Shown here: positions 40,515-56,003 of the stretch, piece after piece
Position numbering within the stretch: the stretch's first letter is position 1
Layout: the number at the start of each line of letters is the position of its first letter
Assembly (NCBI RefSeq): GCF_900110025.1
Contig: NZ_FOCE01000011.1
Span: forward strand, 19,791-83,790
Length of the DNA stretch: 64,000 bases
Source: Gemmobacter aquatilis
GTDB taxonomy: Bacteria > Pseudomonadota > Alphaproteobacteria > Rhodobacterales > Rhodobacteraceae
Direction: 5' to 3'
Translations under genes and position numbers: made by a program
Notes under the pieces: model-generated
What the model was told of the DNA's origin: nothing
What the model saw: the letters and a program-made list of their open reading frames with translations, nothing else
Databases searched by the model: none

Positions 40515-40525
40515 GTGTGTGTGCC

Positions 40526-41557
40526 ATGTCATTGGAAACAGAAGATCTGCTGCGAGACCTCTCGCAAAATGCCGAAAGCGTCTGCCGTCATTATCTTCCC
40601 GCCGGGAGGCGGGAAGGCTCCTACTGGATGGTCGGCGATCTGCAGAACAATCCGGGCCGCTCGCTGTTTGTCAGGTTAACTGGCCCGACCTCTGGACCGG
40701 GTGCCAGAGGCAAGTGGACCGACAGTGCCACGTCCCAGTTTGGCGATCTCCTTGACATCATTCGCGAACGGACGGGCATCACCCGCTTTCCCGATCTTCT
40801 GGCCGAGGCCCGGGTGCATCTTGGCCGTCCGCAGCCGGTTCTCCCGGATGGCAATCCCTCGCGCAGCCGAAAATCCCCCTCAGGCACGCCGGCAGCAGCA
40901 TCGCGCTTGTTTGCGGCCTCGCTTCCATTGGCCGGTTCCTTGGCAGCAACTTACCTGCGTTCCCGGGGCATCACCCAGGCGGTGCCAAGTGCGGCCCTGC
41001 GCTTCCACCCGAAGTGCTGGCATCGGGATGAGGGTCAGACCAGGCCCGTTCCCAGACCTGCGATGATCGCTGCGGTCACCGATGGGGCAGGGGTCCTGCA
41101 AGGTGTGCATCGCACCTGGTTGGCTCCTGACGGACAGGACAAAGCGCATGTCGAGATCCCCCGTCGGGCAATGGGTCACCTCCTCGGCAATGCTGTCAGG
41201 CTGAGCCCGTGTGACTCCGTCCTCGTGCTGGGTGAAGGCATCGAGACCATGCTGTCCATCCGCGAGGCGGCCCCTTCTTTACCCGTCTGGGCGGCGCTGT
41301 CATCGTCTCACCTCGGAGCCGTCATCCTGCCCGCGGGGGTGCAGCGCCTCTACATTGCCCGCGACCGCGATCCGGCCGGGGCACGCGCGACGGAGAGGTT
41401 GACCGCCAGAGCATCCAAGGACGGGCTTCAGGTCATGGTGCTCGAGCCGCAACTCGGGGATTTCAACGATGATCTCCGCGCCCACGGCGTTGAAGCGCTG
41501 CGTCAACATCTGGCAGAGCAGATCGGCCCTGAGGATTTGCACCGTCTGCCGATCTGA
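40526..41557 (+). CDS. toprim-domain (DUF7146-like) plasmid primase-related protein
   Basis: 343 residues from the ATG at 40526, 11 nt after the helicase stop. The toprim motifs are VLGEGIETMLS (acidic Glu) and YIARDRDPAG (D-x-D), and GDFNDDL follows. The N-terminal part lacks the CHC2 zinc-finger cysteines expected of full primases. It may synthesise or process primers on transferred DNA or work with the helicase next door. It accompanies the helicase gene in many plasmid regions of this type. Confidence 0.78.
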   Translation: MSLETEDLLRDLSQNAESVCRHYLPAGRREGSYWMVGDLQNNPGRSLFVRLTGPTSGPGARGKWTDSATSQFGDLLDIIRERTGITRFPDLLAEARVHLGRPQPVLPDGNPSRSRKSPSGTPAAASRLFAASLPLAGSLAATYLRSRGITQAVPSAALRFHPKCWHRDEGQTRPVPRPAMIAAVTDGAGVLQGVHRTWLAPDGQDKAHVEIPRRAMGHLLGNAVRLSPCDSVLVLGEGIETMLSIREAAPSLPVWAALSSSHLGAVILPAGVQRLYIARDRDPAGARATERLTARASKDGLQVMVLEPQLGDFNDDLRAHGVEALRQHLAEQIGPEDLHRLPI

Positions 41558-41960
41558 GCCCCCTAGCGCAAAGGCAGTCTGGCAAAGCGGGGCAGGCGGC
41601 GCACTTCGCCGGAGGAAATTCGGTCGTGGTCTATTGCCATGTCCCGGCTGTCAAACCCGCCCGACACCCGCACGTCCTTCAAGAGATGGGCAGGCGGCCG
41701 TCAAAGGCGCCGCCCCTGCAAGGACGGGGCGCAACTGATTTCCGCCGCGGGGAACCCCACCCCATGCGACAGGTCGCATGGGAACCCCGAGGTTTGCCCC
41801 CGCTTTGCATCGCGAAGCAAATCAGCCGCCCCCCGTCCTCCTCCACATGCGTTCCGGCCCCGAAGAGGGGGTGAAGGGGCGTCCCCAGTGACAGCTTTCG
41901 CAGCCCATGAAGGCCGCGCGGGGATGTCGCGCGGGCCCGAGCAGCCGGAGGCAAAAGACC
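41558..41960. other. 400-nt gene-free interval with a strong hairpin
   Basis: No convincing gene: frames here are low-complexity and lack family pattern. It contains a perfect 9-bp stem CCCATGCGA-CAGG-TCGCATGGG (41761-41782) and several GGGGAACCCC-like runs. It separates the toprim gene from the DUF2493-like gene. It could be a regulatory leader, a single-strand promoter or part of a transfer site. Confidence 0.45.
41761..41782. repeat. perfect 9-bp stem-loop
   Basis: CCCATGCGA-CAGG-TCGCATGGG with a 4-nt loop, 180 nt upstream of the next gene. No poly-T follows. Confidence 0.6.
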
Positions 41961-42896
41961 ATGACGACCCAATTCCAGAGCGAGGATTTCGACCGCAGCC
42001 CCGCCCTTTCCCAGACCGCCTGGGCGCTTCAGGAGCTTCAGCTCTATGGCACCCGTGCCTTCCAGGACGAGGCCGATCTGCGCCCGATGCCAGAACCCGA
42101 GCGCCTCATCGACGCGGTCACTGATATCTTCGATGCCCTCGTCGCGACCCTCGGCGATACCCGCATGGAACCCGACCTCGAAGAACTGCTCTGGGGTCAG
42201 GTCAACCTCTTCCACCGCGCCGCCGCCCGCACCGAACGCCTGCTCGATGACAACGAAGTGGCGCAGCACCGCCTTCAGCGCGAACAGGACGGTTCTGAGG
42301 TGAAATCGACCGAGCTTGAGCGCCTGACGGCCGAAGGCACCAGCCTTGTCGAACGGCGGCATTGTCTGGAAGCCTTCCGCGACCGCAGCGCCGAGGCATT
42401 CGAGCTGCACACCGGCTCAACCTGGCGGCCTCGCTCTGGCTCGATGGTGAACCACCGGCATCTGACGGCGGCGCTGATCGACAGCCGCGATTTCCTCTCA
42501 GCCAAGCGCCGCGCCGAAAACGAAGTACTACTCCCCTCCGGCCCCAAGGTTGCCCTCACCGGCGGGACCGACTTTAACGATCACCGCCTGATCTGGGTCA
42601 AGCTTGATCAGGTCCAGGCCAAGTATCCCGACATGGTTCTCCTGCACGGTGGCAGCGCCAAGGGGGCCGAACTCATCGCCGCCAAATGGGCCGATGCCCG
42701 CAAGGTTACGCAGGTCGCGTTCAAGCCGGACTGGACCAAACACGCCAAGGCCGCACCCTTCAAGCGCAACGACGCCATGCTGGATGTACTCCCCGTGGGT
42801 GTCCTCGTCTTCCCGGGCAACGGCATCCAGGAAAACCTCGCCGACAAGGCCAAAAAGCTGGGCATCCCGGTCCTGAAGTTCGAGAAGGGGGCGTGA
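41961..42896 (+). CDS. DUF2493-like conserved plasmid protein
   Basis: 311 residues. The C-terminal Rossmann-like domain (about 195-311) reads VALTGGTDFNDHRLIWVKLDQV, MVLLHGGSAKGAELIAAKWA and PVGVLVFPGNGIQENLADKAKKLGIPV, the DUF2493 (SLOG-like, nucleotide-binding) pattern. The N-terminal half is acidic and helical. SLOG-like domains bind nucleotides and sometimes act as sensors in conflict systems. GGAGG precedes the ATG. Last gene of the element region before the IS110-type insertion. Confidence 0.8.
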   Translation: MTTQFQSEDFDRSPALSQTAWALQELQLYGTRAFQDEADLRPMPEPERLIDAVTDIFDALVATLGDTRMEPDLEELLWGQVNLFHRAAARTERLLDDNEVAQHRLQREQDGSEVKSTELERLTAEGTSLVERRHCLEAFRDRSAEAFELHTGSTWRPRSGSMVNHRHLTAALIDSRDFLSAKRRAENEVLLPSGPKVALTGGTDFNDHRLIWVKLDQVQAKYPDMVLLHGGSAKGAELIAAKWADARKVTQVAFKPDWTKHAKAAPFKRNDAMLDVLPVGVLVFPGNGIQENLADKAKKLGIPVLKFEKGA

Positions 42897-42930
42897 GCCC
42901 CCCCAGCAACTTCAATTCCGGCCCATATGT

Positions 42931-42944
42931 ATGTGTCGGCTGCT
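42931..42944 (+). repeat. IS110-type inverted repeat, left
   Basis: ATGTGTCGGCTGCT; exact inverse of 44289-44302. Confidence 0.85.
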
Positions 42945-43163
42945 GTTCGCAATTGAGAATTTGGCACGACTTCGGAAATCGCTCATATGTATCCGGCCTG
43001 TTGATCGGCTCGCGGGCCGTGGCCTTGATGGGGTTACGCACGCGCCTTGGTCTCATTAGCGGCAAGGTCCTGGCTGACCATAAGGGCCGTCAGACTCTGG
43101 GGGCGTATTTTCTCCGTTCCATGCTGTCTCTCTGTCGCGAACTCCTTCTGACCGTGGAAAGCG

Positions 43164-44231
43164 TCAGATGGTTTCCATGGCCATATCTCTTGGGGCGTCG
43201 AACCGGGTCCCGTGTCGCAGAACGCTCCATGCGGTTCGGGCAAGTTTGTTGGCCAGCGCAACGGCTGCCTTGTTGCGCGGCATGCGTTTCACCGCTTCGG
43301 TCAGCCAGGGGCCGAAGCTGAAGGTGGACCACCTGTTCTGACGCATCATGATCACCTTCGCCGCCTGAACGAAGAGCATACGAAGATAGCGGCTGCCCCG
43401 TTTGGTGATCCGCCCGAGGATCGTTCTCCCGCCCGTGCTGTATTGGGTCGGCACCAAACCGACCCACGCGGCAAAGTCCCGACCTCGGTCGAAAGCCTCC
43501 CCCTTGCCAACTGCCGCGACCATTGCCGTCGAGATCATTGGACCGATCCCGGGGATGGTCATGACGTTGGCGCAGTTCTCTTCCGTGCGGCTGATCTCCT
43601 CGATCTCGCCCGAGACGTCCTCGATCCGTTTGTCCAGCCACAGCCAGTCGCCGTAAAGCCCGATCAGAATACCGCGCATCCGGGGCGAGATCTCGCCCCG
43701 CCGCTGTTCGAGGATCGCCTCAAACGAATTCCTCAACGCCCGCAGACCCGAGCGCACAGTGATGCCCTGTTCGATCAGAAAGGCCCGGATCTGGTTGATG
43801 CTCGCCGTGCGCCGCGAAACCAGCCGTGCCCGGACCCGATGCAATGCCTGAAGATCAAGTTGATCCTGATCCTTCTCCGAGACGGTCCGCAGGTTAGGTC
43901 GCAGCGCCGCCTCAGCGATTGCCTCGGCGTCATTGTAGTCATTCTTCTGGCCCTTGTTGAAGGGCTTCACGTAAATTGCGGGGATGATCCGCGGCTCGAA
44001 ACCCATGCCTCGTAGCGTCCGGCTGACAAAATGGGCGCTGAGGCAGGCTTCCATCCCGACGATGCAGCGTGGGAGCTGTTCGAATGTGGCACTCAACGCC
44101 AGCCGCTTGATCTGCTTGCGCATGACCAGCTGGCCGGCGCGGTCGAACCCGACCAGATGAAACGTGTCCTTGCCGATATCGACACCGACGACGACAAGGT
44201 CTTCGAAGCTTCCTGTCTTGTTTGCACACAT
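43164..44231 (-). CDS. IS110-family transposase (DEDD)
   Basis: 355 residues. The RuvC-like N-terminal domain has VGVDIGKDTFH (first Asp), GMEACLSAHF (Glu) and NDYNDAEAIAEAA (Asp pair). The C-terminal transposase_20 part has MTIPGIGPMISTAMVAAVG and the catalytic Ser region GGRTILGRITKRGSRYLRMLFVQAA. The start at 44231 follows AAGGAG. The gene is intact, so this copy may be active. Confidence 0.93.
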   Translation of the reverse strand: MCANKTGSFEDLVVVGVDIGKDTFHLVGFDRAGQLVMRKQIKRLALSATFEQLPRCIVGMEACLSAHFVSRTLRGMGFEPRIIPAIYVKPFNKGQKNDYNDAEAIAEAALRPNLRTVSEKDQDQLDLQALHRVRARLVSRRTASINQIRAFLIEQGITVRSGLRALRNSFEAILEQRRGEISPRMRGILIGLYGDWLWLDKRIEDVSGEIEEISRTEENCANVMTIPGIGPMISTAMVAAVGKGEAFDRGRDFAAWVGLVPTQYSTGGRTILGRITKRGSRYLRMLFVQAAKVIMMRQNRWSTFSFGPWLTEAVKRMPRNKAAVALANKLARTAWSVLRHGTRFDAPRDMAMETI

Positions 44232-44288
44232 GGCTACTTCTCCTTGTTGCACGGTTGATCCCTCTTCAGGGTAACCCAACGGTGGGGA

Positions 44289-44302
44289 AGCAGCCGACAC
44301 AT
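44289..44302 (-). repeat. IS110-type inverted repeat, right
   Basis: AGCAGCCGACACAT; partner of 42931-42944. Confidence 0.85.
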
Positions 44303-45497: not shown

Positions 45498-45585
45498 AGA
45501 TCAATTCTTTGCAATTCACAACACAGAAGATTCCCGGCATTCCATGTCCAAGGGGCGGCAAGTTCCGCCTGGGAGGAAGACCCAA

Positions 45586-46656
45586 ATGGATGACCTGATG
45601 CGCATACCGTGCGTCCTGATGAGGGGCGGCACGTCCAAGGGACCTTTTTTTCTGCGCAGCGATCTGCCCGCAGACCCGGCGCAGCGCGATGCGCTGCTGA
45701 TAGAGATCATGGGCTCTGGCCACCCGCTGGAGATCGACGGCATCGGGGGGGGCAACCCCCTGAGCTCAAAGGTCGCCATCGTCGGACCGGCCAGCCGCGA
45801 GGGGGCGGATGTCGACTACCTCTTTGCGCAGGTGAAGGTCGATGAACAGATCGTCGACACCGCGCCCAACTGCGGCAACATGTTGTCGGCGGTCGCGGCG
45901 TTCTCAGTTGAGCGCGGGCTGGTGCTGGCCGGGCCGTCCGAGACGCGGGTGCGCGTGCACAACGTAAATACCGGCAAGATCATCGAGGCGCGTATCCTCA
46001 CGCCGGGGGGCGAGCTACGCTATCAAGGTGACGCCGGTATCGACGGCGTGCCGGGCACGGCGGCGCCGGTCTATCTGGCATTTCTCGAGGCGATCGGGGC
46101 CAAGACCGGGCACCTTCTGCCCTCGGGCGCGCCGCAAGAGGTGATTGATGGGGTTCCGGTCTCGTTGATTGATGGCGCGACGCCGGTCATGATCGCCCGG
46201 GCCGAGACCTTCGGACTGACAGGTTCAGAAAGCGCACAGGAACTCGACCGGAACACCGCGTTCATGGCACGGCTTGAGGCCGTTCGCCTGAAGGCCGGGC
46301 AGAGGATGGGTTTTGGCGACGTCGCGCAGTCGGTGCTTCCCAAACCGGTGCTGATCGGCGCCCCGCAACGCGGGGGCGATCTGGCCGTGCGGTACTTCAC
46401 ACCATGGAGTTGCCATTCATCGCTTGCAACGACCGGGGCCGTTTCGGTTGCCGTTGCCGCGACGCTGCCGGACAGCATCGTGGGCACTGCCATGCCGGAT
46501 CTGCGTTTGCCCACTGACCTCACATTCGAACACCCGTCCGGTCGCATGGCCGTGCGCGTGGAGACCGACGCAGCGACGGGCCAACCCGTCGTCTTCGTCA
46601 CCCGTACCTGCCGCCGTCTGTTCGAAGGCGCTGCTCTGGTGCGACGCAGAAACTGA
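45586..46656 (+). CDS. PrpF-family isomerase/tautomerase
   Basis: 356 residues. MRIPCVLMRGGTSKGPFFLRSDLP and IDGIGGGNPLSSKVAIVGPA are diagnostic of PrpF (2-methylaconitate isomerase) and GalD (4-oxalomesaconate tautomerase). DTAPNCGNMLSAVAAFSVE holds the catalytic Cys region. It would move a double bond in an unsaturated tricarboxylate such as aconitate or oxalomesaconate. The ATG at 45586 follows GGGAGGA. It opens an operon with a tricarboxylate transporter and an ATP-citrate-lyase-like enzyme. Confidence 0.88.
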   Translation: MDDLMRIPCVLMRGGTSKGPFFLRSDLPADPAQRDALLIEIMGSGHPLEIDGIGGGNPLSSKVAIVGPASREGADVDYLFAQVKVDEQIVDTAPNCGNMLSAVAAFSVERGLVLAGPSETRVRVHNVNTGKIIEARILTPGGELRYQGDAGIDGVPGTAAPVYLAFLEAIGAKTGHLLPSGAPQEVIDGVPVSLIDGATPVMIARAETFGLTGSESAQELDRNTAFMARLEAVRLKAGQRMGFGDVAQSVLPKPVLIGAPQRGGDLAVRYFTPWSCHSSLATTGAVSVAVAATLPDSIVGTAMPDLRLPTDLTFEHPSGRMAVRVETDAATGQPVVFVTRTCRRLFEGAALVRRRN

Positions 46657-46724
46657 CGGCAAGCCGCTGGAGGGGCTGGACCTGCAGGCGGAACCGGAGA
46701 TCTTTGTTCAAGGGAGGAACTGAC

Positions 46725-47696
46725 ATGCTGAAATTCAATCGTCGTGCCGCGCTGGCGCTTGGGGTGGCGCTGTTGTCGACGGCGGGCCTGCCCGCGCTGG
46801 CGCAGGACTATCCGTCCAAGCCGGTGACACTGGTCGTGTCCTATGCGGCTGGTGGTGGAACCGATGCGATTGCACGCGTCTTTGCCGCGCGGCTCGAAAA
46901 GGCGCTGAATGGCCGCGTGATCGTGGAAAACCGCCCCGGTGCGGCCGCAAACATCGGGACCGAGGTGGTCGCAAGCGCCGATCCCGATGGTTACACCCTG
47001 CTGGTGGGCAATCAGGGCCCGATGGCGGTGAACCCGCATATCTTCAACCTGAAACACGACCCGGCCGAAGCGCTGGACCCGATCGCAATGATCGCCGATG
47101 CCTCGCTCGTGGTGGTGGTCGGTCCGCGCCTGCCGGTCACCTCGCTGGCCGAGCTTCTTGAAAAGGCCAAGGCGGGAGAGTTGGTTTACGGTTCGGCCGG
47201 CAACGCCTCGGCAAGCCATGTCGCGACGCTGCTTCTGGGTCAGACGGCGGGGATCGATCTGAAGCATGTGCCTTACAAGGGTGCAGGCCCGGCGGTGAAT
47301 GATCTGGTCGGTGGCCATATCGACTTCATGGTCACCACCATTCCGTCGGTCATCGGCCTCGTCGGCGACGGCACGCTGACCGCGCTGGCGGTGACCGGCG
47401 CTGAGCGCTTTGCTGAACTGCCCGACGTTCCGACCGTCGCCGAGTCCGGACTGCCGACCTACACCGCCTCGGCATGGTATGGCCTGCTGGGGCCCAAAGG
47501 GCTGCCGCAGGACGTGCGCGACAAACTGGCCAGCGCCACGGCCGAAACACTCGCGGATCCGGAGTTCATCGCCAAGCTGAAGAACGATGGCGGCGTGCCC
47601 TCGGCCCTCTCCGGGCAGGCTTTCGCTGACTTCATGGCCGCGGAACGTGCCCGCTGGGGTGAGGTCGTCAAGGCCGCCAACATCAAGGTGGAGTGA
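46725..47696 (+). CDS. tctC: tripartite tricarboxylate transporter substrate-binding protein TctC
   Basis: 323 residues. A signal peptide (MLKFNRRAALALGVALLSTAGLPALAQ, cut after ALA) is followed by YPSKPVTLVVSYAAGGGTDAIAR, the family start. VPYKGAGPAVNDLVGGHIDF is a further TctC/Bug landmark. Periplasmic binding protein for a carboxylate. GGAGGA precedes the ATG. Directly upstream of tctB and tctA, so the complete uptake system is present. Confidence 0.93.
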   Translation: MLKFNRRAALALGVALLSTAGLPALAQDYPSKPVTLVVSYAAGGGTDAIARVFAARLEKALNGRVIVENRPGAAANIGTEVVASADPDGYTLLVGNQGPMAVNPHIFNLKHDPAEALDPIAMIADASLVVVVGPRLPVTSLAELLEKAKAGELVYGSAGNASASHVATLLLGQTAGIDLKHVPYKGAGPAVNDLVGGHIDFMVTTIPSVIGLVGDGTLTALAVTGAERFAELPDVPTVAESGLPTYTASAWYGLLGPKGLPQDVRDKLASATAETLADPEFIAKLKNDGGVPSALSGQAFADFMAAERARWGEVVKAANIKVE

Positions 47697-47701
47697 CAGA
47701 A

Positions 47702-48217
47702 ATGAGCCACGAGGTCACCAACCCGCCCCCGCCACGACCCTTGATCGGCCGAGAACGGCTGGCCGGGCTCTGCCTCGTGGTTTTCGGGCTCTTTGCCCTC
47801 TATGCCAGCGCCGATCTTCCCTTCTTCACCGAAGGGGGGGTTGGATCAGGCCTTCTGCCGCGCGCGTTGTCGGTGCTGATCATCCTTCTGGGAATTGTGC
47901 AGCTGGCGATCTGCTGGCGCGAGCCACCGGAATCAACCGGCAACTGGCCGATCCGAGACATGGTTCCGGTGCTGGTCGGGATCTTCCTCTTTGCCCTGAC
48001 GATCCGTGGTTTTGATTTCGGATCGTTCAAGATCCCGGTGCTGGGAATGGCGGTCGCAACGCCGCTGGCGATCTTCTGCTCGGGCATGGCGGCAAAGGAT
48101 GCGCGTCTGGTGGAGCTTCTGATCTTCACGGTGGTGTTGTCTGCGCTCTGCATTGCCTTGTTCCGTTTCGCGCTCGGGCTTTCGCTGCCTGTTGCGCCTT
48201 GGCTGATCGGATACTGA
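47702..48217 (+). CDS. tctB: tripartite tricarboxylate transporter small membrane subunit TctB
   Basis: 171 residues with about four hydrophobic segments (LAGLCLVVFGLFALYA, ALSVLIILLGIVQLAIC, PVLVGIFLFALTI, LLIFTVVLSALCIALF). It matches TctB in size and position between tctC and tctA. It starts 5 nt after the tctC stop. Confidence 0.88.
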   Translation: MSHEVTNPPPPRPLIGRERLAGLCLVVFGLFALYASADLPFFTEGGVGSGLLPRALSVLIILLGIVQLAICWREPPESTGNWPIRDMVPVLVGIFLFALTIRGFDFGSFKIPVLGMAVATPLAIFCSGMAAKDARLVELLIFTVVLSALCIALFRFALGLSLPVAPWLIGY

Positions 48218-48218
48218 C

Positions 48219-49724
48219 ATGATGGACATGCTGTACAATCTGGGGCTGGGCTTTGCCGTCGCGCTCACGCTCAAGAATGTGTTTTTCTGCTTTGTTGGCT
48301 GCCTTATCGGCACGCTTGTGGGTGTGCTTCCCGGTGTCGGCCCGGTCGCGACCATCTCGATCTTGCTGCCGGTCACGCTGGCGCTGGACCCGACCGGTGC
48401 CCTGATCATGCTGGCCGGGATTTACTACGGCGCGCAGTATGGCGGCTCGACCACGGCCATTCTGGTGAACATCCCGGGCGAGGCCACGGCCGTCGTCACC
48501 GCGATTGACGGGCACGAGATGGCAAAGCGCGGGCAGGCCGGGCTGGCACTTGGGCTTGCCGCCATCGGATCGTTCATCGCCGGCACCTTTGCGACCATCG
48601 TCATTGCGGCGCTTGGCGTTCCGATGACCAAGCTGGGTCTGCTCTTCGGTCCGGCAGAGTATTTCTCGCTGATGGTCATGGGCCTCGTGTTTGCGGTCGT
48701 GCTGGCGCATGGATCGCTGACCAAGGCCGTGGCGATGATCCTGGCGGGCGTGCTTCTGTCCTGCGTTGGGGCGGATATGGAAACCGGGCGCGAACGGATG
48801 ACCTTTGGCCTGCACATGCTGACCGACGGGATCGAATTCGTCGTGCTGGCGATGGGCGTCTTCGGCTTCGGCGAGATCTTCAAGAATCTGGCTGACCCCG
48901 AAAAGCGCGATCTGGTGAAGGGTTCGATCGGGCGGCTCTGGCCCAGCCTGCGTGACCTGCGCGAAAACATGGGCGCAATCCTGCGCGGGACGGGTATCGG
49001 TGCGGTGCTCGGTGTGCTTCCCGGCAACGGCGCGATCCTCGGCCCATTCGCCAGCTACGCGATGGAAAAGCGGCTGTCGAAGCGCCCGCAGGACTTTGGC
49101 ACCGGCGTTTCGCAGGCGGTTGCAGGGCCTGAATCGGCAAACAATGCCGGCGCGCAGACCTCGTTCATTCCCTTGATGACGCTGGGCCTGCCACCCAATG
49201 CGGTGATGGCGCTTATGGTGGGCGCCATGATGATCCAGGGCATTGTTCCCGGTCCGCAGGTCATCGAGCGCAACCCGGAGCTGTTCTGGGGCCTGATCGC
49301 CAGCATGTGGATCGGCAACCTGATGCTGGTCATCATCAACCTGCCCCTGATCGGCCTCTGGGTGAAGCTGCTGCAGGTGCCATACCGCTTGCTCTTCCCT
49401 GCCATTGTCGCCTTCTGCTGCATCGGTCTCTTCTCGATCTCGAACGAGCCGACGCAGGTGATGATGGCTGGTGCGATGGGTCTGGTGGGATTTGCGCTGT
49501 GGAAGCTGCAGTTCGAGGCCGCGCCGCTTGCGCTTGGCTTCGTGCTGGGCCGGCTGCTGGAAGAAAAGCTGCGTCAGGCGCTGATCATTTCGGATGGCAG
49601 CATGACCACCTTTATCACCTCGCCGCTGTCGGCCTTCCTTCTGGCCATCGGGGCCTTCGCTCTGCTCGTCGCGGTGCTGCCGTCGATCCGCAAATCGCGC
49701 GACGAGGTGTTCAAGGACGCCTGA
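48219..49724 (+). CDS. tctA: tripartite tricarboxylate transporter large membrane subunit TctA
   Basis: 501 residues, about 11-12 transmembrane segments. GTLVGVLPGVGPVATISILLP and AGIYYGAQYGGSTTAILVNIPGE are the conserved first-half motifs; LPGNGAILGPFASYAMEK and NNAGAQTSFIPLMTLGLPPNAVMALM are the second-half equivalents. It moves the substrate with a cation. It starts 1 nt after the tctB stop. Confidence 0.94.
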   Translation: MMDMLYNLGLGFAVALTLKNVFFCFVGCLIGTLVGVLPGVGPVATISILLPVTLALDPTGALIMLAGIYYGAQYGGSTTAILVNIPGEATAVVTAIDGHEMAKRGQAGLALGLAAIGSFIAGTFATIVIAALGVPMTKLGLLFGPAEYFSLMVMGLVFAVVLAHGSLTKAVAMILAGVLLSCVGADMETGRERMTFGLHMLTDGIEFVVLAMGVFGFGEIFKNLADPEKRDLVKGSIGRLWPSLRDLRENMGAILRGTGIGAVLGVLPGNGAILGPFASYAMEKRLSKRPQDFGTGVSQAVAGPESANNAGAQTSFIPLMTLGLPPNAVMALMVGAMMIQGIVPGPQVIERNPELFWGLIASMWIGNLMLVIINLPLIGLWVKLLQVPYRLLFPAIVAFCCIGLFSISNEPTQVMMAGAMGLVGFALWKLQFEAAPLALGFVLGRLLEEKLRQALIISDGSMTTFITSPLSAFLLAIGAFALLVAVLPSIRKSRDEVFKDA

Positions 49725-49812: not shown

Positions 49813-51087
49813 ATGCAGGTGACCGGAATGCTCACGGGTGCACGTCTGCTGGCCCATGTCGGATTTCCCACGTCGGAAATCCTTGGCCCCGACGCAACAG
49901 AGGATCAGATCCAGGGTCTGATCGACCGACACGGCCTGATCTTCATCAAGCCGCTGTTCCGGGGCGGGGTGGGGAAGAAGGGCAAGGCCGGGCTGATTGG
50001 TCGCGCCCGTGATCTGGGAACCGCACTGGCGGAAAAGGAGCGGCTCTACTTTGCCGAGCACCGCCACGGCAATGCGGTCGCCAAGGCCAATGGCGTGACC
50101 TTCGAGGCGGGCGTCCCTGCGGAACATGAGGTCTATTTCGCGATCACCGACGACACGCGCTTTCGTGCCCCAACGATGACGCTGACCCACCGCGGCGGGG
50201 TGGATATCGAGGAACTCGACAAGTCCGAGATCGCGAGCGTTCCGTTTGATGCATTGACGGGGATGAAGGCCTTCGTCGTCGCCAATGCCTTGACCGAGAT
50301 CGGTGCCCCGCGTGAGATCATCTCGCCCCTGACGCAGCATCTGCCGAAACTGTGGGAGCTGATGCACCACTACGGCATGACAACGCTGGAGTTGAACCCG
50401 ATCCGCATGATGCCGGGCCGCGATGGCCGGCTGACCCCCATCGCCTGCGACTTCAAATGCGGCTTTGACCGGGACGACCTGCGCGTGGGTCGCCTCGGCC
50501 TGCCGGATTATCTGTTCGCCGCCGACATTTCCGAGTTCGAGCAAGAGGTGAACCAGCTGCGCACCCATCAGGGGCAGTCGGACGTCTTCGTCATCAACGA
50601 AAAGGGCACCATCCTTGCGCCAACCTTTGGCGGTGGGGCGAACAGTCTGGTGACCGAGGTTCTGGGCGATGCCGCCATCATCTCCTCCGATTTTGGGGGC
50701 AACCCGCCCTATGAGAAGATGAAGGCCGTCGCCTCGATCTGCTACCGTCATTTCCTGAAGCAGACCAATGTCCTGTTCATCATTGGCGGCAAGTCGAACA
50801 ATACCGACATTCTGGAAACCTTCCGGGGCATGGGTGATGCTCTGCGCGAGCACTTTGCCCGGCATGGACCGGTGCCGCTCTATGTCGTGGTTGGGCGCGG
50901 CGGTCCGAACCTTGTGCGCGGCATGGGCAACCTTGCCGATACGCTGGACAGCCTTGGCGTGCCCTACCGCTTTTTCGGCTTCGACAGCGCAATTTCCGAA
51001 GTGGTCAACCATGCCAAGCAGGTCGACCAATGGATGCGCGGCGGTGGGCGTGCCGAGATTGCCCGCGCGATGAACATCAGCATCTGA
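49813..51087 (+). CDS. ATP-citrate-lyase-like small (ATP-grasp/citrate-binding) subunit
   Basis: 424 residues. Motif order follows the N-terminal half of ATP citrate lyase: KPLFRGGVGKKGKAGL, HRGGVDIEELD, TTLELNPI (ATP-grasp), TFGGGANSLVTEV, then the citrate-binding domain with IIGGKSNNTDILETFRGM and VVGRGGPNLVRGMG. The Asn, Thr and Arg that hold citrate appear kept, although the GGGAS loop reads GGGAN. With the next gene it should form citryl-CoA (or an analogue) at the cost of ATP. It starts 88 nt after tctA and 13 nt before the large subunit. Confidence 0.82.
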   Translation: MQVTGMLTGARLLAHVGFPTSEILGPDATEDQIQGLIDRHGLIFIKPLFRGGVGKKGKAGLIGRARDLGTALAEKERLYFAEHRHGNAVAKANGVTFEAGVPAEHEVYFAITDDTRFRAPTMTLTHRGGVDIEELDKSEIASVPFDALTGMKAFVVANALTEIGAPREIISPLTQHLPKLWELMHHYGMTTLELNPIRMMPGRDGRLTPIACDFKCGFDRDDLRVGRLGLPDYLFAADISEFEQEVNQLRTHQGQSDVFVINEKGTILAPTFGGGANSLVTEVLGDAAIISSDFGGNPPYEKMKAVASICYRHFLKQTNVLFIIGGKSNNTDILETFRGMGDALREHFARHGPVPLYVVVGRGGPNLVRGMGNLADTLDSLGVPYRFFGFDSAISEVVNHAKQVDQWMRGGGRAEIARAMNISI

Positions 51088-51100
51088 CAGGAGACTTGCC

Positions 51101-53812
51101 ATGTATCGCCAAGGGGTCGCGGATTTTCCGTATTTTCTGGGCATTGACCGTCTGGATCAGATCGCAACGCCCGATGACCGGGTTTGTGTGCTGAACATTC
51201 TGGGGAGCGAAAGCCGCACTGTGACGCCGGTCAGCCACGCCTTCTCGGGTGGCAATGTGGTGTTCGGCACCTCGCCGGGCCGGTCGGGGCAGGTTCTGAA
51301 GACGCTGGCAGGCGACATTCCGGTGTTCAACACCGTGCTTGAAGGGCTGAGAGCCGGGCATCGTTTCAACACCGGGGTCGTCTATCTGCCACCTTCGGGC
51401 GTGCGCGATGGCGTGGCCGAGTTGATCCGCGTCAACCCGGAGCTGCGCAAGATCGTCATCATCACCGAAAAGATCGCGGTCCATGACGCGCGCGAGATCC
51501 GGGCCATGGCGCAAACCTCGGGCATCGATATCGTCGGGGGCAACTGCCTTGGTGTTGCTGACAGTTGGTCGCGCGTGCGCATTGGCGGCGCGCTTGGTGG
51601 AGATCACCCCGAGGAGTCACTCATCAAGGGCTCGGTCGCCGTTTTCTCGAACTCGGGCGGGTTCACGACCACCATCGCGCAATACATGGCGACGGCTGGA
51701 TGGGGAACGACGACGCTGATTTCGTCGGGCAAGGATGTGTACATCCAGTATGCCGCGCGTGACTTTGCCCACGCCTTCGGCAATGACTCCCGCTCGCGTG
51801 CGGCGGTGCTCTATGTCGAACCTGGCGGCTATTACGAACGGGGCATCGAATGGTCCAAGCCCGTGGTTGCCTGTGTGGTGGGCCGCTGGAAATCACGGCT
51901 GACACGCGCCGTGGGCCATGCCGGGGCGATGGCAGGCGCGGGCGACAGTGCCGAGGACAAGGAGCGCTGGTTCATGGAAGCGTTCGGAGTCAAAGGCATA
52001 TTCACGCCCGCAACACCGCACGTTTCGGCCAAGGGTGCACTGGTGACGAACATTGCCGACATTCCGGCGGCGCTTACGGCGGTGATGGCGCTGAACGGGG
52101 CCTCACCCGATTTTGCGCCGCGCGGATCGCTGACATTGAAGCCATGGATCGCGAACGATCAGGGGCTGCCGCTGCCATCCGAGATCGCCCTGCCCGTGGT
52201 GACCGCACCTTCCCCTTACGACCAGCAGATCGCCGGACTGTCTGACCAGATCGGCGCGGTCATCGCGCGGCAGGGGATGAAGGACAAATCAGGTGCCAGC
52301 GTGATGGATGCCCAGACACAGGTGACCAGCGTGCATGGTCACACTGTGCTCGATCTGGCGCTGCAACCGCTTGAGGCAATGTTTGCCTTGCCGCTTGTCC
52401 ACGAAATTGCCGACGCGAATGATCGGGCGCTGCTCGATGTAGCTGTGGCTGCTGAGGTCAACCTGGTGGGGGATCCGATCCTTGTCGCGACCGATGCCGC
52501 GCGTGCGGGGGCCAATGCCCCAAACGCGATCATGGCGGTCGCCGCGGGTATTACCGGCCCGCACCGGCTGGAGCGGGCCCTGGCCTGCGCGCAGGCGCTG
52601 ATCGAGCTTTTCGCCAAATCCGGCTTGCGCGATGGCCGCGACGAAGGCTTTGACCTGTCCAGGATCCAGATCGATGACGCGACGCGCCGGTTGTTCCTTG
52701 CCACCGCCGATGAGGCTGACGACCCAAGACCCGAGGCGATGCTGGAGGCGATTGCCGCCCGTGGCGGCCGGTCGGTCTTTCTGAACTTCCTGATGGGTCT
52801 GGGCGCCCGTGTCTCCCGTGACGCGATCCTTGCCGCCATCACCACGACGATCGCCTGGGGCCCGCTGGTGCGCAAGCGGATCAGCCGACTGACGGCCGGG
52901 ACGCTGCCCTGGTATCTGCGGCTTTATGGCGTGATGGTGGGGGCGACGATCCCCGGCCAGCATCACCAGCCCGGCAGCCTCTGGGGCATTCCCCGCGCCG
53001 AGCGGTTTCAGGACTGGACAATGGCCGACCTCTGCTGCCTTGCAATGACCGGCAAAAGGCCAGCCCCGAACGAGGCACTTTACATCCAGATCCTCATCGG
53101 GCTTCTGATCTCCAACGGCCCCGGTGCAATCTCGGCGCAGGGTGCCAAGGGCGCGGTGGCCGCCGACGGCCCCCAGACACCCGAGCGCGTGCAGATCAAC
53201 AAGGCGATGATGGGCTTTCTGACCCATTCGGGCTACAGCCACGGCGGCAACGGGTTTGAGGGCATGGCTTTCCTTCTGGACCAGTTCCGCGACAGCGGGC
53301 TGACAGATCCGGCCAACCCGGACCACGGGCTTGACCTGAAGGCGATGGCCCGCCGCTTTGCCCTTGCCTACAAGGCCGAAAAGCGCAGCGCCAAAGACCT
53401 GGGGCAAGAGGTGCGCGCCCTTCCCGGCGTCCACCATCCGGTCTTCAAGGGCAAGCCTGAAAACTTTGACCCGCGCGAACGCTTTATCGCGCGCTTCATG
53501 GAGGAACGGGGCGAATACAACGTCTTCCACGATTTCTACCGACATCTGGTGCGCGAGTTGTTCGAGGTGGGGGCCTCTCCCTATGTCTTCTGCGTAAATG
53601 TCGATGCGATCATCGCGGCGCTGCTTCTGTCTGTGCTGTGGAAGGATTACCAGTCCGGGGCCCTGACCTCGCGCGATCTGGAAACCGCGGCCTTTACCGT
53701 GTTCCTGTTCGGTCGCATGATCGGGGCGGCCGCCGAAATCGACGACCATCTGAACAGGGGGCGCAACATGGATACCCGAACGCCCGCATCCGCTTGTGGC
53801 CATGTCCTCTGA
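51101..53812 (+). CDS. ATP-citrate-lyase-like large subunit, extended
   Basis: 903 residues; typical bacterial AclA-type subunits are about 600. The N-terminal part (about 1-350) is a succinyl-CoA-synthetase-alpha fold with SNSGGFTTTIAQYMATAGWG and the phosphohistidine His273 in VGHAGA. The C-terminal citrate-synthase-like lyase (about 610-890) has HSGYSHGGNGFEG, the GVHHPVFKG segment (His778/779) and NVDAIIAALL with Asp835. Between them (about 375-610) lies a second, partial citrate-synthase-like region containing AARAGANAPNAIMAVAAGITG. It cleaves a citryl-CoA-like thioester to a CoA ester and an oxo acid. It could act on citrate or an analogue. Confidence 0.78.
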   Translation: MYRQGVADFPYFLGIDRLDQIATPDDRVCVLNILGSESRTVTPVSHAFSGGNVVFGTSPGRSGQVLKTLAGDIPVFNTVLEGLRAGHRFNTGVVYLPPSGVRDGVAELIRVNPELRKIVIITEKIAVHDAREIRAMAQTSGIDIVGGNCLGVADSWSRVRIGGALGGDHPEESLIKGSVAVFSNSGGFTTTIAQYMATAGWGTTTLISSGKDVYIQYAARDFAHAFGNDSRSRAAVLYVEPGGYYERGIEWSKPVVACVVGRWKSRLTRAVGHAGAMAGAGDSAEDKERWFMEAFGVKGIFTPATPHVSAKGALVTNIADIPAALTAVMALNGASPDFAPRGSLTLKPWIANDQGLPLPSEIALPVVTAPSPYDQQIAGLSDQIGAVIARQGMKDKSGASVMDAQTQVTSVHGHTVLDLALQPLEAMFALPLVHEIADANDRALLDVAVAAEVNLVGDPILVATDAARAGANAPNAIMAVAAGITGPHRLERALACAQALIELFAKSGLRDGRDEGFDLSRIQIDDATRRLFLATADEADDPRPEAMLEAIAARGGRSVFLNFLMGLGARVSRDAILAAITTTIAWGPLVRKRISRLTAGTLPWYLRLYGVMVGATIPGQHHQPGSLWGIPRAERFQDWTMADLCCLAMTGKRPAPNEALYIQILIGLLISNGPGAISAQGAKGAVAADGPQTPERVQINKAMMGFLTHSGYSHGGNGFEGMAFLLDQFRDSGLTDPANPDHGLDLKAMARRFALAYKAEKRSAKDLGQEVRALPGVHHPVFKGKPENFDPRERFIARFMEERGEYNVFHDFYRHLVRELFEVGASPYVFCVNVDAIIAALLLSVLWKDYQSGALTSRDLETAAFTVFLFGRMIGAAAEIDDHLNRGRNMDTRTPASACGHVL

Positions 53813-54176
53813 GCAGCCAGCGGGCGAGCCGTCATCCGCACCATCGCCATGCCCGCCGACGCCAACCCGTCGGGCGATAACTTTGGGGGCTGGCTGATGG
53901 CCCAGATGGACCTTGCGGCGGGCAATCTTGCCGCAAGGGCATCGCGGGGCCGTTCGGCCACCATCGCGGTAGAGGGGATGACCTTCCACAAGCCTGTGAA
54001 GGGTTGGGAGGAAATGTCGCTTTACGCGGACATGGTTTCGACCGGTCGGACATCGATGCGCATCCATGTCGACGCATGGCGGCGCAACAGATATGCCGAA
54101 GAGAGCGTGATGGTGACCGATGCCACCTTCACCTTCCTCGTGCTGGACAGCGAGGGGCGGCCCGCCTCTTGGTTGA
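53802..54176 (+). pseudogene. YciA-type acyl-CoA thioesterase with two single-base indels
   Basis: The hotdog core is clear: IRTIAMPADANPSGDNFGGWL, MTFHKPVKGWEEMSLYADMV, GRTSMRIHVDAWRRN. The likely start MSSEQPAGEP (ATG at 53802) is in a different frame, and one base is missing near 53829. At the other end removal of one C near 54162 would give EGRPPLG and a stop at 54176, a normal family end; as written the frame runs on into the convergent GntR gene. It would release CoA from short acyl-CoA. It is either broken or affected by sequencing indels. Confidence 0.65.
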
Positions 54177-54230
54177 CCGGCAGGACGCGTCGCCCGATCG
54201 CTCTGCACTCTGGCCCGCTGCGATGGCGGT

Positions 54231-54899
54231 CTACGGCTCGTCGTGCAGCGGGATCTCGCGACCACGCATGGCGCGGATGCGCATGGACAGGGCCGCTTCG
54301 ACATGGGCCCGCATCGCCGCTTCGGCCGTCGCCCCGTCACGGGCCTGCAGCGCCGCCAGGACGGTGGCATGTTCGCTCAGGGAGGCCGTCACGCGGTCAG
54401 GGTCGGTGAGCGTGCTGGACCCAAGGATCAGCAGCGTCTTTTGCAGCGCGCTGACTGCCTTGACCAGAAACCGGTTGCGTGCGGCATCAAGCAGCGTGCG
54501 GTGAAACTGCCGGTTCAACTCGCGCGCAATGGGGCCCGGCGGGGCAGAGGCCAGATCAGCGTTCAGTGCGGCAAGTTCCGCCAGTTCGATCTCGGATGCG
54601 GCCCGCGCCGCAAGTCGCGCCGCCGTCCCCTCCAGCACCGCGCGCATCTCGTAAAGTTCGATCACTTCAGCATAATCGAGGCTGCGCACCGTCGCGCCCT
54701 GACGCGGCAAATGCACGACCAGCCCGTCGGCCTCCAGCTGGCGGATCGCCTCGCGCACGGGGGTTCGGCTGATTCCCAGACGCGCGGCAAGATCGGTCTC
54801 GCGCAGACGCGTTCCAGGGCCAAGCCTGCCCGCACGCACCTCTTCAAGCAACTGGCGGTAGGCGCCCTGTCCTTGGGAAAGGTCGCTGTCCTCCGTCAT
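54231..54899 (-). CDS. GntR family regulator, FCD subfamily
   Basis: 222 residues. Winged helix with RLRETDLAARLGISRTPVREAIRQLEADGLV, then the FCD domain with YEMRAVLEGTAARLAARAA and LNRQFHRTLLDAARN, whose His and Asp/Arg pattern suggests metal-assisted binding of a carboxylate. Convergent with the tricarboxylate operon and divergent from the AbrB-family membrane gene; a TGTATACA palindrome lies between the divergent pair. Confidence 0.9.
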   Translation of the reverse strand: MTEDSDLSQGQGAYRQLLEEVRAGRLGPGTRLRETDLAARLGISRTPVREAIRQLEADGLVVHLPRQGATVRSLDYAEVIELYEMRAVLEGTAARLAARAASEIELAELAALNADLASAPPGPIARELNRQFHRTLLDAARNRFLVKAVSALQKTLLILGSSTLTDPDRVTASLSEHATVLAALQARDGATAEAAMRAHVEAALSMRIRAMRGREIPLHDEP

Positions 54900-54932
54900 C
54901 CTGACACCTCACTTGCCATTTTGGTGTCCATA

Positions 54933-54940
54933 TGTATACA
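54933..54940. promoter_or_regulatory. GntR-type palindrome upstream of divergent genes
   Basis: TGTATACA within ATGTATACAACTGTAT, resembling the TTGTATACAA sites bound by FCD-type GntR regulators. It is 33 nt from the GntR start and 31 nt from the membrane-protein start. Confidence 0.45.
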
Positions 54941-54971
54941 ACTGTATTCAAAATCGGCAAGGAGTCGCATC

Positions 54972-56003
54972 GTGTTTTCTTCGCTGTCCATGCGGCTTGT
55001 GACTTTCGGCCTTGCGTTGGCGGGTGCCGTCCTGTTCCAGATCGCCGGGTTGCCGCTACCCTTCCTCTTCGGGCCGATGGCCGCCTGCCTGCTCGCGGCT
55101 CTGGCCGGGATGCCGCTCAAGGGGGTGGGGCTGATCTCCACCCTGTCGCGGGCTATTCTGGGGGTCGCGATCGGCGCATCGATCACGCCCGAGGTGGTGG
55201 GGCGCATCCCGCAGATGGCGGGCAGCGTGGCGCTGGTTCCAATCTATGTGGTGTTGATCGGCTTGGTGGGCGTGCCGTTCTTTCGACGTCTCGGATTTGA
55301 TCCCGTGACGTCGTGGTATGCCGCGATGCCCGGCGGGCTGCATGACATGGTGACCTTCGGACAGGAGGCAGGTGCAGATGTGCGCGCGCTGTCCCTGATC
55401 CATGCAACCCGGGTTCTGGTGATCGTGACTGCGGCCCCGATGATCCTCGCAGGGCTTTATGGCGCGGGGTTGACCGGTGCCATCGGCGCGCCGCTTCGCG
55501 ATCTTCCGGTTTCGGAGATCATCCTGATGACCGCCGCCGCCTTGATCGGCTGGAAGGGTGCCGAGCGGTTTGGTCTGTTCGGTGCCTCCATCCTTGGGCC
55601 GATGATCGTGACTTCCGCGCTGACGCTTTCGGGGCTGATCCATGCCCGCCCACCCGCCGAGGCCATTCTGGCGGCGCAACTCTTCATCGGCATCAGCATC
55701 GGGGTCCAGTACGTGGGTGTCACCCTGCGCGAACTGCGGGGTTTTGTCCTGTCTGGCCTCGCCTTTGTCGCCATTCTCGCGGTTCTGGCTGCCGCCTTTA
55801 CCGAGCTTGTCACCCTGACGGGGCTCGCCAATCCGGTCGAGGGGTTTCTGGCCTTTGCGCCGGGTGGGCAGGCAGAGATGACCGTGCTTGCGCTGGTGGC
55901 CGGTGCCGACCTTGGCTTCGTGATCCTGCATCACCTGACGCGAATGGTGGTGGTTATTCTCGGCGCACCGGTTGCGGCGCGTCTGTCTGGCATAAAACGT
56001 TAG
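54972..56003 (+). CDS. AbrB-family (PF05145-like) integral membrane protein
   Basis: 343 residues, about 10 hydrophobic segments in two similar halves: LPLPFLFGPMAACLLAALAGMPLKG and ILGPMIVTSALTLSG mark the repeats. The family is often named ammonia monooxygenase or AbrB regulator but is a membrane protein of unknown, probably transport, function. A GTG start at 54972 is chosen because AAGGAG lies 7 nt upstream; ATG at 54990 is possible. It probably exports or imports a compound sensed by the adjacent GntR protein. Confidence 0.8.
   Translation: MFSSLSMRLVTFGLALAGAVLFQIAGLPLPFLFGPMAACLLAALAGMPLKGVGLISTLSRAILGVAIGASITPEVVGRIPQMAGSVALVPIYVVLIGLVGVPFFRRLGFDPVTSWYAAMPGGLHDMVTFGQEAGADVRALSLIHATRVLVIVTAAPMILAGLYGAGLTGAIGAPLRDLPVSEIILMTAAALIGWKGAERFGLFGASILGPMIVTSALTLSGLIHARPPAEAILAAQLFIGISIGVQYVGVTLRELRGFVLSGLAFVAILAVLAAAFTELVTLTGLANPVEGFLAFAPGGQAEMTVLALVAGADLGFVILHHLTRMVVVILGAPVAARLSGIKR

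Follow-up and report, generated by a model that had tools for sequence, protein, structure and literature searches.

A putative type II ATP-citrate lyase with one intact and one degenerate lyase module, encoded beside tricarboxylate uptake genes in Gemmobacter aquatilis

A 64,000-nucleotide stretch of Gemmobacter aquatilis DNA (contig NZ_FOCE01000011.1, positions 19,791 to 83,790 of the forward strand; hereafter the window) carries a gene at 51101–53812 (+) for a 903-residue protein, in which a synthetase part is followed by two citryl-CoA lyase (CCL) modules, and directly upstream, at 49813–51087 (+), the gene of a 424-residue partner with ATP-grasp_2 and ATP citrate lyase citrate-binding domains. 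Together these large and small subunits would form an enzyme of the postulated type II kind that cleaves citrate at the expense of ATP. With moderate confidence, we read the pair as an uptake-linked ATP-citrate lyase (ACL) that serves growth on citrate or related acids and combines one live with one catalytically dead lyase module. The enzyme type was known already but is uncharacterised; what is new here is the live/dead module pair and the clade in which the enzyme is linked to uptake.

The open reading frame (ORF) of the large subunit coincides exactly with 51101–53812 and comprises 903 codons, of which only the N-terminal CoA_binding and Succ_CoA_lig domains exceeded Pfam cut-offs. These define a part resembling the citryl-CoA synthetase (CCS) small subunit and SucD (residues 1–365; 51101–52195, +), whose best solved relative is the CCS small subunit 6hxq (1.8e-34 over residues 25–301; structure Z of 34.5 to 6hxq_A), with Chlorobium ACL matching roughly the same region at 2.6e-12. 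His273 in its GHAGA motif (51917–51919, +), which we take to be the phosphohistidine site known from the family, is conserved in all 81 aligned relatives. At the other end, module 2 (residues 626–903; 52976–53809, +) carries the full set of catalytic-type lyase residues, namely His714 in HGG (53240–53242), His779 in GVHHPVFKG (53435–53437), Asp835 in NVDA (53603–53605) and Arg872 in GRMIG (53714–53716), all on the + strand and each likewise found in 81/81 relatives. In an alignment with the lyase 6hxp that was weak overall (E 0.24), the first three fell opposite AHGG, GYGHR and NVDG, motifs that a profile of stand-alone lyases carries as well. They are presumably the equivalents of H274, H320 and D375 of citrate synthase, and by its motif Asp835 would correspond to the Asp that is replaced in the D1026A mutant of human ACLY.

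Module 2 was detected by NCBIfam citryl-CoA lyase models at 1.4e-5, with weak matches at 711–894 and 640–844 that stayed below cut-off; the same two models matched 42 and 40 of the 52 proteins in an alignment made of the window protein and 51 of 80 named loci (one locus was dropped because its translation contains a stop, and 28 more were not included). Pfam Citrate_synt was absent from the window protein, and from its module 2 when scanned separately, and was found at E≤0.01 in 19 of the 36 module-2 rows of another alignment. Judged from sequence, the general marks of an ATP citrate lyase are present, i.e. an ATP-grasp and citrate-binding subunit, a phosphohistidine-type His and the catalytic-type residues of the lyase. 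As in the family, the small subunit together with residues 1–365 would convert citrate, ATP and CoA to citryl-CoA through phospho-His273, and module 2, given its conserved residues, would then split citryl-CoA into acetyl-CoA and oxaloacetate.

Between these two parts lies module 1 (residues 400–622; 52298–52966, +), which profiles, predicted structure and residue conservation characterise as a nearly complete but degenerate CCL module. An earlier note on this DNA had described two modules resembling citrate synthase or CCL with the first one degenerate; profiles and predicted structure bore this out, and the motifs it quoted are present. Profile–profile comparison by hhalign, based on the 52-row alignment, matched module 1 (370–625) to module 2 (630–903) with a score of 61.2 and a probability of 95% over 123 columns, pairing residues 500–622 with 725–883. 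The best of 200 column-shuffled profiles scored 25.0, and a control comparison of module 1 with the synthetase part gave 14.8; with 81-row profiles the score between the modules rose to 72.4 (E 4.4e-10). Residues 389–592 also matched the profile of six stand-alone citryl-CoA lyases (50.6 over 201 columns, versus 13.8, 16.8 and 19.6 in three shuffles), to which module 2 scored 66.4, and both alignments cross an RGYD-like stretch near the lyase start. Module 2 gave a weak match (37.0) to a profile of nine ordinary citrate synthases, the motif filter on these reference profiles having removed 5 of 11 lyase loci and 1 of 10 citrate-synthase loci. The profile comparisons thereby show modules 1 and 2 to be homologous; either a tandem duplication or the fusion of a second lyase may have given rise to module 1.

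The predicted structure extended this likeness over the whole of module 1. An AlphaFold2 model of the full protein, built from the 52-row alignment, had a mean predicted local distance difference test score (pLDDT) of 82.5, with the ten-residue blocks of 411–670 at 84–97, and it aligned with the large subunits of solved bacterial and archaeal ACLs (6hxj_B, 6hxi_B and 6znw_B) over 14–622, i.e. through module 1; with human ACLY holoenzymes the aligned span reached 896–903. Large root-mean-square deviations (rmsd) accompany these full-length matches because the domains shift. Residues 400–628 modelled alone gave a pLDDT of 84.8 and a predicted template modelling score (pTM) of 0.81. When this model was searched with VIA-align, the top 21 rows were all CCL or ACL lyase modules (Z 12.6–13.9), led by 6hxk_B (Z 13.9, rmsd 4.2, 186 aligned), 6poe_A, 6hxp and 6hxi_B, all at 13.9; citrate and methylcitrate synthases followed (Z 7.1–10.4), and then an unrelated Cas10d (Z 4.7). 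The lyase matches extended to residue 222 of the 229 in the model, and module 1 is thus predicted to adopt the CCL fold across its whole length. An unrelated middle domain, which the earlier note had named as the outcome that would speak against it, did not emerge, since the stand-alone model matched CCL and ACL lyases first; its description of module 1 as degenerate stood, and that of a mere first half gave way to a nearly whole CCL fold at about 400–622, minus the His loop.

That loop, with the catalytic His, is absent from module 1 in the module alignment. Position 489, by offset the one opposite H714, is mostly R or E, D574 stands opposite D835 and is Asp in 54/81 relatives, and the window sequence has V611 opposite R872. 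Read from its residues, module 1 does not qualify as an active citryl-CoA lyase, for which the HGG His, GxGH His, NVD Asp and cis Arg are expected. A new substrate pocket in module 1, as had been suggested earlier, finds no support, since the positions that correspond to the catalytic residues are either missing or variable there; a new interface between modules 1 and 2 is plausible.

The family to which this protein belongs is very probably the type II ACL. That name was given by Hugler and Sievert in 2011, and the accessible parts of later papers place the enzyme in Magnetococcus, tubeworm symbionts and Thioflavicoccus (PMC3522073, PMC6783814, PMC6315080, PMC5459899), report that citrate cleavage was detected in Magnetococcus MC-1, a strain without further ACL genes (PMC6783814), and put Planctomycetes forms between the CCS–CCL system and type II (PMC5459899). 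Three of these four papers describe the enzyme as novel, proposed, putative or postulated. Published type II primers, acl2F1 and acl2R1, encode VAKEEWF and NGFEAIA (PMC3522073, in part), and variants of both peptides occur in the window large subunit at residues about 285–291 and 717–723. Loose patterns, KE.W[FYL] and NG[FY]E[AG], were found in 80/81 and 79/81 family proteins (window residues 287–291 and 717–721), and both exact primer cores in only 2/81; at the DNA level, the best primer sites lay 1285–1318 bases apart in 8 of 16 loci, with 2–6 mismatches per primer, and elsewhere in the other eight. These primer-site results support kinship with type II, which we consider very probable, without proving it.

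Compared with the type II enzymes of Magnetococcus (Mmc1_3638/3639), the Riftia, Tevnia and Lamellibrachia symbionts and Thioflavicoccus, the window system shares the two-gene organisation and the ATP-grasp/citrate-binding small subunit, and relatives at 54–56% identity to the window protein occur in genomes with a 2-oxoacid:acceptor oxidoreductase; it differs in that its operon includes genes for tricarboxylate uptake, and in that the markers of the reverse tricarboxylic acid (TCA) cycle and of RuBisCO that were searched are missing from its genome. Type I ACL (Chlorobium AclA/AclB, human ACLY) likewise joins a synthetase-like part to a following lyase and has an ATP-grasp plus citrate-binding small subunit, but Chlorobium AclA (617 residues, 6hxj_B) aligns with model residues 19–621 and has one lyase module where the window protein has a second. 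With 903 residues and two modules, the latter departs from a type I AclA of about 600 residues with a single module, and its synthetase part is closer to citryl-CoA synthetase (122 bits) than to Chlorobium AclA (48.7 bits). The separate synthetase and lyase system (6hxq, 6hxp) provides the best solved match to the synthetase part, a fold match to module 1 (Z 13.9 to 6hxp) and motifs that align, weakly, with the catalytic ones of module 2, but its lyase is a 268-residue protein of its own with one module, whereas the window fuses two to the synthetase subunit. No description of the tandem lyase architecture or of the uptake-linked clade was found in the accessible parts of the literature searched, which includes PMC3522073, PMC6783814, PMC6315080, PMC5459899, PMC3136470, PMC5441870, PMC6194059 and PMC6593406 and does not extend to the 2011 naming review or to Figure S3 (gene variants) of PMC5459899. 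Searches directed at the architecture, or at a link between citrate uptake and ATP citrate lyase, likewise yielded nothing relevant as judged by titles and opening lines of abstracts.

The gene neighbourhood points to a role in uptake-coupled growth. Upstream of the small subunit and on the same strand, the window encodes a PrpF-family isomerase (45544–46656, +) and, as identified by domain search, the tricarboxylate-binding receptor TctC (46704–47696, +), TctB (47693–48217, +) and TctA, the permease of a tripartite tricarboxylate transporter (48219–49724, +); an acyl-CoA thioesterase with a 4HBT domain, for which the YciA model stayed below cut-off, follows the large subunit (53849–54409, +). 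The context of relatives was surveyed in 87 loci, i.e. 80 named ones (the best of at least 524) and 7 from plasmids. The small subunit lay in the flank of 82/87, and each of the five misses begins no more than 560 bases from a contig edge. Among transport and sensing genes, the flanks held response regulators (31 loci), sensor kinases (30), TctA (29), PrpF (15), thioesterase (14), TctC (12), DctA (5), and TctB, TcuA, TcuB, 2-hydroxycarboxylate transporters and major facilitator superfamily transporters (4 each); genes of the reverse-TCA type were monomeric isocitrate dehydrogenase (10), aconitase (9), and HdrA-like (7) and KorB-like (5) proteins.

A quick unrooted tree of 81 rows (LG+G4, SH-aLRT) arranged these contexts by clade. 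One distant clade comprised 29 rows with a support of 100, a second was mainly of the reverse-TCA kind (11 of its 13 rows so labelled), and the 38-row clade of the window had 22 rows labelled uptake, 4 with regulators only and 12 unlabelled; its named isolates include Gemmobacter, Halomonas and Caballeronia. Setting the uptake labels against the reverse-TCA labels required a single change on the tree, and setting them against all other labels required 15, a number that reflects the interspersed unlabelled and regulator-only rows. In the 20 of 29 distant loci whose context was surveyed, the references found nothing other than the small subunit apart from a handful of regulator hits, and respiratory complex I-like genes (NuoA- and NuoD-like, judged by eye) recurred. 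Members of the window clade would thus break down imported citrate, or acids leading to citrate, instead of fixing carbon through the reverse TCA cycle, a contrast in which the context is observed, whereas the reaction and the direction of the change are inferred, the tree being unrooted.

The model TIGR03710 of 2-oxoacid:acceptor oxidoreductase, the sole reverse-TCA genome marker searched, was scored at E≤1e-20 or by its curated cut-off. At E≤1e-20 it was present in 36 of the 38 other enzyme-carrying genomes of a phylum sample (the two misses being 57% and 65% complete), in all 14 genomes of the reverse-TCA clade plus L103, in 9 of 29 genomes on the window side (20/29 without it), and in 9 of 40 phylum-sample genomes lacking the enzyme; 29 of the 38 phylum-sample genomes and 18 of the 29 window-side ones have a row in the tree. 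In the window genome, the oxidoreductase was not found over cut-off (the best TIGR03710 match, 21.7 bits, is far below it), nor was RuBisCO, and there is one ordinary citrate synthase. By this single marker, the window's enzyme does not appear to co-occur with the key genes of the reverse TCA cycle, which bears on its role and leaves its sequence kinship aside.

Several results weigh against an uptake-linked enzyme with a live/dead lyase pair. On the side of its role, the oxidoreductase exceeded the curated cut-off in 35/38 phylum-sample genomes, 6/14 of the reverse-TCA clade, 9/29 of the window side and 8/40 genomes without the enzyme, so that the contrast between reverse-TCA clade and window side is nearly gone (6/14 versus 9/29). 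The other eight genomes of the reverse-TCA clade match the model only from position 158–193 onward, as separate-subunit forms would, and this clade therefore stands out only when such shorter matches are included; these counts slightly lowered our confidence. In addition, 16 of the 38 window-side rows have no transporter label (6 of the 12 unlabelled ones sit on loci cut by contig ends), the sensor-kinase and response-regulator references come from very large families, and several context references were drawn from the same loci that were counted. As to the enzyme, the accessible parts of PMC3522073 and PMC6783814 call type II putative or postulated, and no assay of a purified enzyme was seen there. 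As to module 1, its direct local match to module 2 spans the second halves only, the first half being supported by the global alignment and the stand-alone lyase profile; it gave no signal against the profile of nine ordinary citrate synthases (14.6), and its profile found among PDB sequences five matches (E 0.22–0.63), none of them a citrate synthase or lyase. Foldseek returned 81 matches at E≤10 for the module 1 model and none at E≤0.001, citrate synthases and lyases being frequent among the 50 listed, and the structural case therefore rests on VIA-align and the profile result; the packing of the domains is not defined because the full model has a pTM of 0.64.

The substrate and quaternary structure given here for the window enzyme are proposals, and an alternative worth weighing, which we think unlikely, is that the same architecture acts on another tricarboxylate, such as a citrate with a substituent at position 2 or an acid formed in the metabolism of tricarballylate, aconitate or 4-oxalomesaconate. 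Such a substrate would suit the PrpF-family neighbour, which exceeds the cut-off of the 4-oxalomesaconate tautomerase model, as well as the tricarballylate genes TcuA/TcuB beside 4/87 relatives and the thioesterase beside 14/87. Yet the small subunit carries the citrate-binding domain of ATP-citrate lyase, the catalytic-type residues are common to the reverse-TCA clade, whose members are expected to act on citrate, and cis-aconitate, the product of TcuAB, itself leads to citrate.

Module 1, for its part, keeps residues of its own. Q407, R468, P474, G486, S558, W586 and G614 are invariant in 81/81 relatives and position 593 is always R or K, so that the module is apparently retained for a purpose other than cleavage. 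We infer that, having lost its catalytic-type residues, it most likely pairs with module 2, taking the place that a second copy of the same subunit has in ordinary lyase dimers. The same invariant residues, with the constant R/K at 593, could instead mark a regulatory domain with a retained ligand site (e.g. for CoA or a dicarboxylate); this seems quite improbable, as conservation is lower in module 1 than in either of the other parts, with a mean top-residue fraction of 0.69 against 0.74 in module 2 and 0.81 in the synthetase part. The idea that an unrelated helical domain occupies the middle and resembles a lyase by chance, as its lack of sequence matches to solved structures and the insignificant Foldseek scores might suggest, is very hard to reconcile with a profile score of 61 where none of 200 shuffles exceeded 25, the 201-column CCL match and the 21 lyase modules at the head of the VIA-align rows.

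The enzyme is widespread but patchy. Matches occurred in 40 of 398 genomes of the phylum sample (window genome included), 36 covering practically the whole protein, three being partial and one, G196, having the synthetase subunit only; at E≤1e-40, the window's own genome is the sole carrier among 196 of its order. The named-genome scan recovered at least 524 stretches encoding a relative, and 80% or more of the protein is present in one place in each of 19 plasmid records. The phylum-sample and named-locus matches rule out a rarity peculiar to this one genome. The earlier proposal to look for the same 900-residue architecture across genomes was rewarded, 78 of the 80 best named loci matching over no fewer than 892 of its 903 residues, and the two-module form, seen in these loci and in the 36 whole-length matches of the phylum sample, is constant among the relatives examined. 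G196 (locus L123) encodes a separate synthetase small subunit and, close by, a stand-alone citryl-CoA lyase above family cut-off, i.e. an unfused form. A copy in a metagenome-assembled genome (MAG) named Anaerolineae (Chloroflexota; L082) is almost identical to that of an alphaproteobacterial MAG (L079; summed branch about 0.05) and is probably misbinned. On a Paracoccus denitrificans plasmid (L010, 5001–5483), only a fragment of residues 617–777 occurs at 81% identity, perhaps a decayed copy, and on Aminobacter pUSP3 (L004, 15465–18210) the lyase pair adjoins genes annotated as a phospholipase of the CBASS (cyclic oligonucleotide-based antiphage signalling system) type and a nucleotidyltransferase.

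Around the operon, a membrane protein with an AbrB duplication (54243–56003) comes after the thioesterase and was also seen near 2/87 relatives. Upstream, 36153–44300 encodes a large strawberry-notch-type helicase (AAA_34 plus Helicase_C_4), a Toprim/DUF7146 protein, a YspA SLOG protein and an IS110 transposase, which puts the operon at the edge of a mobile or plasmid-like region. The large-subunit gene is overlapped by long ORFs on the reverse strand, and one cluster of such frames, represented by a frame opposite the gene of the small subunit, recurs in 38/88 stretches; we take these for shadow frames of GC-rich (guanine plus cytosine) DNA.

More broadly, and as a tentative proposal that we hold at a little under even confidence, type II ACL would be inherently asymmetric, with the fused dead module forming half of a lyase dimer, and a large alpha-, beta- and gammaproteobacterial clade would use the enzyme for uptake-coupled growth on citrate, aconitate or tricarballylate rather than for carbon fixation. 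Presence of this gene alone is no evidence of carbon fixation by the reverse TCA cycle. Type II ACL has been invoked as the citrate-cleaving step of magnetotactic bacteria and tubeworm symbionts, for which the architecture of one live and one dead module may serve as a concrete structural model, and the uptake-linked clade includes named isolates in which its activity is genetically testable.

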